The position numbers were made by a program, and so were the translations under genes. DNA of 37,425 nt. Source: a virus. Within the stretch, counting starts at the first letter, position 1. Every line of letters starts with the position of its first letter. Below the pieces are notes generated by a model. That model was not told where the DNA came from. It was given only the letters and a program-made list of their open reading frames with translations, and made no database searches. Location of the stretch: the IMG/VR virus record IMGVR_UViG_3300023179_000266, positions 1-37,425 of that record. One strand, written 5' to 3'. Shown piece by piece: positions 26,145 to 30,776 of this stretch.

Positions 26145-26234
26145 CTATGCGCTAATTATACACGAAAAACAAGCCCATGACCTACCATTCAGCAGCTTGC
26201 GAACTTCCCACGGTCCCAATGTATGTTTACTCAT
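26145..26234 (-). pseudogene. truncated HTxGPWEV-type gene remnant (29 codons)
   Basis: ORF starts MSKHTLGPWEVRKLLNGRSW with a strong RBS (AAGGGGTGAGC) and stops after 29 codons. HTPGPWEV is the common start of a family of about 70-100 residue phage proteins. Here only this start remains, then the sequence becomes a promoter-like stretch, so I read it as a broken gene. A functional 29-mer cannot be excluded. Confidence 0.45.
26155..26160 (-). promoter_or_regulatory. TATAAT -10 box upstream of 25966..26124
   Basis: A perfect TATAAT on the minus strand, 31 nt before the start of the 52-aa gene. The -35 region at 17 bp is weak (AGGTCA), so an internal promoter is possible but not certain. Confidence 0.35.
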
Positions 26235-26655
26235 TGCTCACCCCTTGCTCTGATTTAGGTTCTTCCCAACTCTCACACTCACACACATACCTGTCAGCAT
26301 TGTGACTAGCGTTACGATCAAATCCATGCGGTGCATCTGGATGGTCTTTACAACGGTTATCCTCCATGACTTCCCCTAAGTTAAAAGGATTATGCCAACA
26401 GATACCCGTTGTATCCTTGGTGACATAACCTCCTAAAGTGTATATGATTTTCTTCTGCCTGTCACCATAGATGTAAATATCCCTATCAACAGTATAGTTA
26501 TCAACTAGCTTCTGCATTGCATTCAACAGTGTATTCTTACCCTTAGCAGGGAATGCTGCCATCAGATCCTCTAAAGAGCATGTACCGCCATTAGAGTGCA
26601 TAAACACTACATACGGTGAAGGCTTACGCTTCCTGGGTTGTATCTTCTTCTTCAT
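26227..26655 (-). CDS. hypothetical protein, possible winged-helix N-terminus (142 aa)
   Basis: Starts MKKKIQPRKRKPSPYVVFMH; residues 20-75 (TCSLEDLMAAFPAKGKNTLL, NAMQKLVDNYTVDRDIYIYG) look like a small winged helix-turn-helix. The C-terminal part has DNRCKDHPDAPHGFDRNASH and ADRYVCECESWEEP, with Cys and His that could bind metal. It may regulate transcription or bind DNA, inferred only. Overlaps the gene upstream by 4 nt (ATGA). Confidence 0.7.
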   Translation of the reverse strand: MKKKIQPRKRKPSPYVVFMHSNGGTCSLEDLMAAFPAKGKNTLLNAMQKLVDNYTVDRDIYIYGDRQKKIIYTLGGYVTKDTTGICWHNPFNLGEVMEDNRCKDHPDAPHGFDRNASHNADRYVCECESWEEPKSEQGVSNE

Positions 26656-26852
26656 ACGTTGAACCCCTTAGCATTCAATGCTTTAGTCAACTGACGCATC
26701 ATAAAGTAAAAACCATAGTCCGAACATAAGCGAACAAATCCACTCAGTACGGCTTCAATCTTAACATCTTCATGGTAATCATCTAACTCTGCCTGTGTTG
26801 GCTCTGAAGCCTTTAGAGCATCTTCAGGTAAGAAATCATCATCAGGATACAC
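26652..26852 (-). CDS. hypothetical protein (66 aa), GTG start
   Basis: Starts with GTG at 26852, seven bases after AAGGAA. Sequence MYPDDDFLPEDALKASEPTQ then AELDDYHEDVKIEAVLSGFV and a helical end (LCSDYGFYFMMRQLTKALNA). Acidic N-terminus; no family recognised. First gene after the repeat-rich control region, so likely among the genes regulated from the promoter at 27141-27169. Confidence 0.7.
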   Translation of the reverse strand: MYPDDDFLPEDALKASEPTQAELDDYHEDVKIEAVLSGFVRLCSDYGFYFMMRQLTKALNAKGFNV

Positions 26853-27012
26853 AATATATTTCCTTTGTAAACTATTGATTCTAAAGATAAAAAGTAGCTA
26901 AAAACAGCTTAGAGGGTACTAGTAATGCCATACTCCTACTTCCTTCTGTACTTAGTACATTGTATGTTACTAAGGGGTGTACATGCTAGTGCTATAGTGT
27001 CCTCCTTCCTTC

Positions 27013-27134
27013 TACATAGGCTATGTATACATAGTAAGTACATAGAATATATTCTAAGTATATACATAGTAAGTACATAGATAGTATTCTAAGTATATAT
27101 TCTAAGTATATACATAGTATACATAGCCTATATA
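27013..27134. repeat. tandem 35-bp repeats flanked by an 18-bp inverted repeat
   Basis: Two tandem 35-bp units (27026-27060 and 27061-27095) differ at 3 positions; each opens with TATACATAGTAAGTACATAG and closes with ATTCTAAGTA. A partial third copy follows (27096-27121). The block is bounded by TACATAGGCTATGTATAC (27013-27030) and its near-exact inverse at 27117-27134 (17 of 18). The left arm contains the palindrome CTATGTATACATAG (27021-27034). It lies within the presumed 5' leader of the minus-strand gene at 26852. The rest of 26853-27172 shows no supported gene. Could be an operator cluster or an origin. Confidence 0.85.
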
Positions 27135-27140
27135 GGTTTT

Positions 27141-27169
27141 AGGGTATCATAGAAAACTAAAGTTGTCAA
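27141..27169 (-). promoter_or_regulatory. early-arm promoter
   Basis: On the minus strand, a consensus -35 TTGACA (27164-27169), 17-bp spacer and -10 TACCCT (27141-27146). The predicted start is near 27134, exactly at the edge of the inverted-repeat block, a position where a repressor bound there would block it. The leader to the GTG at 26852 would be about 280 nt. Confidence 0.6.
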
Positions 27170-27172
27170 TAG

Positions 27173-27367
27173 TTAGTCCTCTGCCTTCTTACGTTCGCTA
27201 ACAATCTCATCATCATCATGCATCAGGGATACATTGCCAACAGCGCAGATATCATCTCGGACATACTTAAAACAATCATTGCATAAGTCTAAGTATTGTC
27301 TTGTTCGAACACTACGCCTAGAGGCTTCATAGTCGCTAAGCACTTCATTGCAGGATAAACATCTAAT
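27173..27367 (-). CDS. zinc-ribbon protein (64 aa) with an apparent ATT start
   Basis: An open frame codes RCLSCNEVLSDYEASRRSVR, then TRQYLDLCNDCFKYVRDD and an acidic-basic tail. Cys3, Cys6, Cys29 and Cys32 form a clear zinc ribbon (CxxC-x22-CxxC) that I recognise from small phage proteins. There is no ATG, GTG or TTG: the frame closes upstream at TAG and only ATT precedes the first Cys pair, with AGGGACGG seven to ten bases before. Either AUU initiates, as in infC, or the start codon is mutated or mis-assembled. Confidence 0.6.
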   Translation of the reverse strand: MRCLSCNEVLSDYEASRRSVRTRQYLDLCNDCFKYVRDDICAVGNVSLMHDDDEIVSERKKAED

Positions 27368-29519: not shown

Positions 29520-29541
29520 TAACGTTGTTCGAATACAACAT

Positions 29542-29557
29542 TGTTTCACGTGAAACC
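29542..29557. promoter_or_regulatory. parS-like site (ParB-binding palindrome)
   Basis: TGTTTCACGTGAAACC matches the bacterial chromosomal parS consensus TGTTTCACGTGAAACA at 15 of 16 bases; the inner 14 bases GTTTCACGTGAAAC are a perfect palindrome. ParB loads at this sequence on chromosomes. No ParA or ParB gene is coded in this genome, so a host ParB would have to bind. Function in the phage is unknown. Confidence 0.75.
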
Positions 29558-29590
29558 AGTGCAGATTGTGCAGGCTTTGGAGTCTGTTCA

Positions 29591-29650
29591 GGTATCTCTG
29601 TAGGGTTCTAGGTTACTCTGTAGGCTTTGAAGTATCTCTATAGGGTGCCT
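29591..29650. repeat. three tandem 20-bp iterons
   Basis: Units at 29591-29610, 29611-29630 and 29631-29650 share the core TATCTCTGTAGGGT-like (copies: TATCTCTGTAGGGT, TTACTCTGTAGGCT, TATCTCTATAGGGT). The exact 20-bp period over 60 bp, next to the parS-like site, resembles iterons of replication origins. Confidence 0.65.
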
Positions 29651-29749
29651 CATCGATACACCTTCGCAGCCTATGCAGCCTATGCACCAACCCAGTGCAG
29701 ACTGTGCAGTCTACTGTACAGATATACAGTGCAGCCTTAATAGTAATGC

Positions 29750-30081: not shown

Positions 30082-30123
30082 TAGTCAAGAGTCTTTACAA
30101 CAATATCATTTGTATGTTACAAT
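30082..30123 (+). promoter_or_regulatory. late-arm promoter with repeated 25-bp core (copy B)
   Basis: TAGTCAAGAG-T-CTTTACAACAATAT (30082-30106) differs at one base from copy A at 1797-1821. -35 TTTACA (30094-30099), 18 bp, -10 TACAAT (30118-30123); initiation near 30130. It would drive terminase, portal and fibre genes, with about 160 nt of leader. Confidence 0.65.
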
Positions 30124-30127
30124 AAGT

Positions 30128-30223
30128 CTACTATGTAGAAACAATGAACAGACGATATACTGACAATAAACAAAAACTTAAATTTATATACTACATACAG
30201 ACTTCATACTGACTACATAGTAG
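30128..30223. promoter_or_regulatory. paired palindromic elements CTACTATGTAG / CTACATAGTAG
   Basis: CTACTATGTAG (30128-30138), at the predicted transcription start, and its reverse complement CTACATAGTAG (30213-30223) lie 85 bp apart. Both contain the ACATAGTA octamer that is found three times in the 27013-27134 block, so the same regulator may act on both arms. Confidence 0.5.
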
Positions 30224-30254
30224 AAATACATAAAATTATATACACTCTTATGTC

Positions 30255-30268
30255 CTGCCTTCCGGCAG
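30255..30268 (+). promoter_or_regulatory. leader hairpin before the small terminase gene
   Basis: CTGCC, loop TTCC, GGCAG: a 5-bp GC stem 22 nt upstream of the ATG at 30291. The ribosome-binding site GAGGGA follows. It could stabilise the 5' end or influence translation. Confidence 0.4.
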
Positions 30269-30290
30269 AGAAACTATATAGAGGGATCTG

Positions 30291-30776
30291 ATGTCAGAAA
30301 TTAAAATTACTGAGGATTGTTCGCTACCTTCATCAGTCAGCCAGGATGTCTTGGCAGTCAATGAAGAAAAGAAAGTGCCTGCGAAAAAGAAAAGATCTAG
30401 AGGTCGTCCTAAGAAGGAAGAAGTACAACAATACATCAAGAGACCTAAAAGAGGTAGACCTCCAGGAGAAGCAGCAAGGATTAAAGAATTCACTGCTTCG
30501 TTGTTGCTGACACACTCTAATGCGATCATAAGAAAGATAGTACATAAAGCATTAGATGATAATGACAAGGATCAGATTGCAGCACTTAAGATGTGTGTTG
30601 ACCGGATGTTACCAGTGTCTTACTTTGAGGATAAAGGACCAGCATCAGGTGCTAAAGCAATTACCATCAACATCACTGGTGTTAATGACAAACCAGTAGA
30701 AATGATTGAACATGAACCAGTTGACGTGGAAACTACGTTGATTGATTACAAAGAAGAAGATGGATCTACAAGTTAA
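30291..30776 (+). CDS. terminase small subunit-like protein with two AT-hooks
   Basis: A 161-residue protein placed directly before the large terminase. Its N-terminal part is very basic, with two AT-hook-like motifs, KKKRSRGRPKKEE and KRPKRGRPPGEAARIKEF, that would bind the minor groove of AT-rich DNA. The middle is helical (SLLLTHSNAIIRKIVHKALD, DQIAALKMCVDRMLPVSYFE), as in small terminases, and the end is acidic. It should recognise phage DNA for packaging. GAGGGA precedes the ATG. Assignment rests mainly on position. Confidence 0.75.
   Translation: MSEIKITEDCSLPSSVSQDVLAVNEEKKVPAKKKRSRGRPKKEEVQQYIKRPKRGRPPGEAARIKEFTASLLLTHSNAIIRKIVHKALDDNDKDQIAALKMCVDRMLPVSYFEDKGPASGAKAITINITGVNDKPVEMIEHEPVDVETTLIDYKEEDGSTS

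Follow-up and report, generated by a model that had tools for sequence, protein, structure and literature searches.

Among the systems that come closest to the locus reported here, winged-helix autorepressors of the HxlR/MarR type act on an operator that is a single palindrome, far shorter than the array described below, and 5′ stem-loops of the ompA type stabilise bacterial mRNA. In part of the published account of plasmid pSM19035, the omega protein (ParB) is described as one small binder of arrays of 7-bp boxes, which lie in both orientations and overlap several promoters (PMC9499535). At the level of titles and abstract openings, no description of an element of the present kind was recognised in the literature.

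The window, by which we mean the whole 37,425-base stretch analysed, is the complete virus record IMGVR_UViG_3300023179_000266. Its source is an uncultivated virus of bacteria, and its close relatives were met only as metagenomic contigs. The minus-strand genes (29180 to 16026) include those encoding a primase-helicase, a DNA polymerase, an exonuclease, a ribonucleotide reductase and a thymidylate synthase, and the plus-strand genes include those encoding the terminase, portal, major head protein, tail proteins and lysozyme. RNA polymerase, integrase and known repressors were all missing from the window proteins scanned, and a tRNA search of the window found none. Because no phage RNA polymerase was among these proteins, both modules probably depend on the host polymerase. 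Between the two modules, the stretch 29540-29740 contains many GTGCAG/CTGCAC-like words and repeats of 9-20 bp, and similar CAGTGCAG-type words occur in the relatives; this stretch is a possible origin or control region.

How is the replication module transcribed? The minus-strand promoter proposed in the initial annotation, TTGACA followed 17 bases later by TACCCT, is present (Table 1). Its -10 hexamer is preceded by TGA, which supplies an extended -10 TG, so that the site combines hexamers 16-18 bp apart with an extended TG, as in sigma-70 promoters. Such a pattern alone is not rare, TTGACA-N15-19-TANNNT having 5 matches in the window against 3.5 expected, and the promoter is credible because it is conserved in relatives. 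The predicted +1, at about 27134 when counted from the last -10 base, coincides with the outer edge of a 124-bp block that reaches to 27012. This block is an array of CTAnnTA/TAnnTAG boxes in dyad order, lying only downstream of +1 and irregularly spaced, at about 4-15 bp; it holds 15 of the 94 such heptads in the window. Two tandem 35-bp repeats had been reported within it, and these were recovered (91% alike, TRF score 132). The 18-bp inverted repeat said to enclose them also exists, but it is exact over 15 bp only and imperfect out to 27012/27135, and one arm shares its inner end with copy 1. The outer arms belong to a 51-nt pair that is 80% complementary (27012-27062 / 27085-27135). A search of the window for exact 10-nt inverted-repeat pairs lying within 130 nt gave 13 rows and six distinct pairs, of which two are in the array and one is at the second promoter considered below. 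As for the leader, which had been put at about 280 nt, 291 nt follow the -10 here, but the leaders of relatives are shorter (120-172 nt) and this length is peculiar to the present contig.

Table 1. Positions of the promoters, repeats, boxes and neighbouring genes in the window
Feature	Position	Strand	Basis
Sigma-70-type promoter, TTGACA (27169-27164)-N17-TACCCT (27146-27141)	27141..27169	-	Pattern match and conservation
Dyad-ordered CTAnnTA/TAnnTAG box array from +1; long inverted repeat/5′-leader hairpin	27012..27135	-	Repeat, alignment and fold analyses
35-bp tandem repeat, copy 1	27026..27060	-	Repeat search, TRF
35-bp tandem repeat, copy 2 (91% like copy 1)	27061..27095	-	Repeat search, TRF
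Outer inverted-repeat arm, 15 bp exact	27016..27030	.	Read from shared 10-mers
Outer inverted-repeat arm at predicted +1, 15 bp exact	27117..27131	.	Read from shared 10-mers
P66, first downstream gene, two-helix protein by prediction	26652..26852	-	Model
P142, gene following P66, modelled as a winged helix, candidate regulator at both promoters	26227..26655	-	
Zn-ribbon-like ORF upstream of the promoter	27173-27367	-	Our label, from C-x2-C pairs
Promoter TTTACA-N18-TACAAT with extended -10 TG, ahead of the structural operon	30094..30123	+	Pattern and relatives
CTACTATGTAG at predicted +1 of the second promoter	30128..30138	+	Repeat/relative comparison
CTACATAGTAG, inverted partner of CTACTATGTAG, 85 bp downstream centre to centre	30213..30223	+	

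Comparison with relatives showed that the promoter and array stand upstream of the same small gene, P66, in all 92 related loci with enough sequence. Because the arrangement is kept in every testable locus, it is not due to chance. The loci, 95 in all, had been placed by tblastn on the start of P66, the first downstream gene. TTGACA and TACCCTAAA occur together in 91 of the 95, 17 bases apart in 89 and 18 apart in 2; of the remaining four, three are contigs that start inside or after the leader, and one (L039) reads TAACCT. These loci overlap, since one contig can yield several, and the 91 with the exact -10 comprise 48 distinct sequences. When the 48 were aligned, the -35, TGATACCCT and the first boxes, CTATATAGGCTATG, proved nearly invariant. 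An exact 29-mer covering the promoter and the start of the array was found in 65 viral contigs, once in each. Box order defines two array types, type 1 with 14 sequences, including the window, and type 2 with 34; both the number and the order of the boxes vary among relatives, and one array (L160) carries extra 9-bp units on one side only. Varying unit number and a one-sided expansion of this sort might also arise if the repeats had expanded passively beside the promoter and had no function. However, the near invariance of the first boxes at +1, the preservation of the dyad order and the paired compensating changes in locus L065 all speak against that explanation, which we consider very unlikely. 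Separately, one contig (L067) carries a 95%-identical piece of the primase gene at its end and none of the neighbouring genes.

A second copy of the promoter and dyad design, absent from the initial annotation, was found at the promoter of the structural operon. The next gene, P161, is probably the small terminase, judging by position, and its upstream regions were collected from 105 loci, 48 of them distinct. By our reading, the +1 box is present in 39 of the 48, after TTGACA...TATAAT/TAGAAT/TACAAT or TTTACA...TACAAT; that is, the hexamers vary and the box stays. The other 9 come from distant phages, in which P161 is 36-41% identical. Across 30 distinct leaders, the two boxes at this promoter are 72-73 or 85-86 bp apart. 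The same leader also contains, at 30246-30290 on the plus strand, a small hairpin, CTGCCTTCCGGCAG, which reads CTGCTTTCAGCAG in some relatives, a change on both sides, and is followed by CTATATAG directly ahead of the ribosome site. P161 itself (30291-30776, plus strand) has two AT-hook-like RGRP motifs, the Pfam AT_hook match falling slightly below cut-off.

The presence of this second site also bears on whether the array could be a replication origin or another protein-DNA assembly site, with partition- or initiator-like iterons. In favour of such a role are the AT-richness of the tandem and inverted repeats, their place some 1 kb before the primase-helicase gene, and the extra 9-bp units in L160. 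However, the cumulative GC-skew minimum, at 28-29 kb and thus 1-2 kb from the array, tracks gene orientation, and all testable relatives have the array in one and the same position beside a promoter, with its smaller second copy likewise tied to another promoter. We therefore regard this role as highly improbable, and the earlier suggestion of a second origin found no support.

Do the two leaders share a recognisable word? CTATGTA occurs 17 times in the window against 7.3 expected, a count reached in 0 of 100 shuffles, and 10 of the 17 copies fall in the two leaders. Two other candidates were rejected: CTATGTAG as an enriched 8-mer (3 found, 1.9 expected) and the window's own word common to both leaders, a 9-mer matched in 66 of 200 shuffles and so not beyond chance. 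Among loci of type 2, a 12-mer, CTATGTAGGCTA, is common to both leaders in 29 of the 45 distinct loci that have both leaders and P142; in the three loci tested, shuffles shared as much in 0, 3 and 4 of 200. The leader types of the two promoters agree in 43 of these 45 loci, an agreement that linkage alone could explain.

The element is a real, conserved regulatory element with two sites. We infer its mechanism as follows. The array would be a cis-regulatory operator array placed just after the start site of the host-type promoter for the replication module, and a sequence-specific phage regulator would block or slow RNA polymerase by binding several of the CTATGTA(G)-like boxes that run downstream from +1. 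With a like site at the +1 of the structural operon, one regulator could govern both modules and their timing. P142 is the candidate regulator; because its gene comes second after the first array, it would exert negative feedback. We give about even chances to this reading, in which a phage regulator binds operators that occupy the first transcribed stretch behind each of two promoters for host RNA polymerase. DNA sites are preferred because the same short word appears, in both orientations, at two unrelated leaders. A broader proposal seems to us rather unlikely: that this phage family, in which no RNA polymerase gene was found, controls its two modules through one clade-specific dyad motif, placed where transcription from each promoter begins, and that the motif differs by clade (CTATGTAG here, ATTATAAGT/ACTTATAAT in relatives) with position and dyad layout constant, as though regulator and sites co-evolved as a set.

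Alternatively, the array might act as a 5′-terminal hairpin in the leader RNA, protecting the mRNA from 5′-end-dependent decay or serving as a processing or protein-binding site in RNA. We hold this to be possible, though doubtful. Folding of 27005-27136 gave -50.2 kcal/mol (z -7.6, with 0 of 200 dinucleotide shuffles as stable), and the second leader also folds below its shuffles (z -3.2). In each of the 15 arrays tested, the boxes fold better in their true order than when permuted (z -2.2 to -5.6, with 8 of 300 permutations as good in the worst case), which indicates that the dyad order is more than a by-product of self-complementary boxes, although against random order with flips the result is weak for the window (19/300) and L160 (26/300), where such sequences do nearly as well. 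The stem between the first and last boxes is paired in 263 of 264 cells and includes one change on both sides, from U-A to C-G in L065, which shuffles reached in 27 of 500. Two loci with shifted 5′ ends, L025 and L160, were left out of one compensating-change analysis and kept in the RNAalifold analysis and in the 263/264 count. Sites located solely downstream of +1 fit an RNA function as well.

Other observations argue against the RNA hairpin. Of 34 distinct arrays, 31 fold more stably as the transcript strand than as its complement, and under plain dinucleotide shuffles this asymmetry was matched in 4 of 200 cases for L064 and 10 of 200 for L022. As proof of an RNA hairpin, however, it failed the permutation control: in the 12 arrays tested, the bias persists when the boxes are permuted (even in the best case, 16 of 200 permutations attain the real value), and it is therefore largely one of composition. 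For the second leader the sign is opposite, the complement folding better than the transcript strand in 19 of 19 cases, and the letters of the outer arm are not matched to each other. A common word at two leaders is unnecessary for a hairpin, none of the 35 pairs that RNAalifold assessed in the type-2 arrays had a change on both sides, and an Rfam search of the window gave no match. Box order and first-last pairing are as compatible with a dyad in DNA as with a stem in RNA, and the strand-asymmetry and covariation tests fail to separate DNA from RNA. Of the earlier proposal of repression or RNA-based control, then, what stands is a conserved regulatory element with the same layout at a second promoter, which may act through DNA sites or through the leader RNA.

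If the boxes are operators, which protein might bind them? In the P142 model, residues 14-74 form helix-strand-helix-helix and a two-strand wing, with block pLDDT of 78-93 over residues 11-70. HxlR/MarR-type regulators are among its best structural hits (Foldseek best E 0.013; VIA Z 9.4, with rmsd 2.7-3.4 over 72-76 residues, the tool's stated typical background of 7-8 being barely lower). Sequence comparisons gave no family match at the curated cut-off, no Pfam HxlR/MarR match, no match among PDB sequences below E 0.47 and none among phage records; a profile search of genome contigs for a host or prophage returned 50 pattern matches and zero relatives. Array and P142 occur together in 137 loci. 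The array alone was found in 14, all of which end 50-318 bases past the array start, and P142 alone in 6, namely five truncated contigs and L039. Because the two are linked, this co-occurrence is weak evidence, and counting against P142 is the recombination of P142 type and array type, 6 of 38 distinct array/protein pairs being mismatched. The C-terminal tails of P142 vary among relatives, L012 included (93 to 203 aa), after an invariant GICWHNPFN end. The idea that P66 has a known DNA-binding fold was rejected on its model, a two-helix hairpin. Together with the Zn-ribbon protein, it flanks the promoter in the close and the distant group alike, and the two are alternative candidate regulators. 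The Zn-ribbon-like ORF seemingly starts at ATT (GGGACGGAAG ATT AGA TGT); among 25 distinct contexts in relatives, the start is ATT in 4 and ATG in 21.

In four distinct distant leaders (L123, L128, L131 and L137), a promoter again lies where the same Zn-ribbon gene ends; after it come dyads that are AT-rich but differ in sequence, and a P66 with weak similarity (aligned in L123, L128 and L131). The arm length of these dyads exceeds shuffles in three of the four, the inverted repeat of L137 being within chance, and such retention of a dyad in another sequence also fits the leader hairpin. A word common to the leaders is not beyond chance in L123 and L131. P142 was not detectable in the distant loci, which removes it as a general factor of the wider group; because it is undetected and the dyads are kept, another or replaced factor must serve the distant phages. 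In the second-module leaders of the distant phages L123, L126, L127, L128 and L137, at a minus-strand promoter, 9-bp tandem units like ACATAGAAG also sit about 30 bases past the -10.

The two-promoter element offers a testable handle on how an apparently host-polymerase-dependent phage separates replication from assembly, and its diverging operator sets form a natural series for studies of regulator-site co-evolution. How does it compare with described systems? Like ompA-type stem-loops, the array has a stable stem at or near +1; unlike them, it shares a short word with a second leader, in which a short stem closes a loop of 60-75 nt. Set beside the omega heptad operators and parS, as portrayed in the pSM19035 account, it likewise has 7-bp boxes in both orientations at the promoters of several units. 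It differs from them in that the boxes are CTAnnTA with irregular steps rather than contiguous WATCACW heptads, that the sites lie only downstream of +1, and that the modelled proteins, P142 (winged helix) and P66 (two helices), include no ribbon-helix-helix. The predicted fold of P142 resembles that of the HxlR/MarR-type winged-helix autorepressors QsrR, HxlR and YodB. Unlike these, P142 lacks a Pfam family match and its operator is putative; like them, it is a small candidate regulator encoded inside the operon that it may control.
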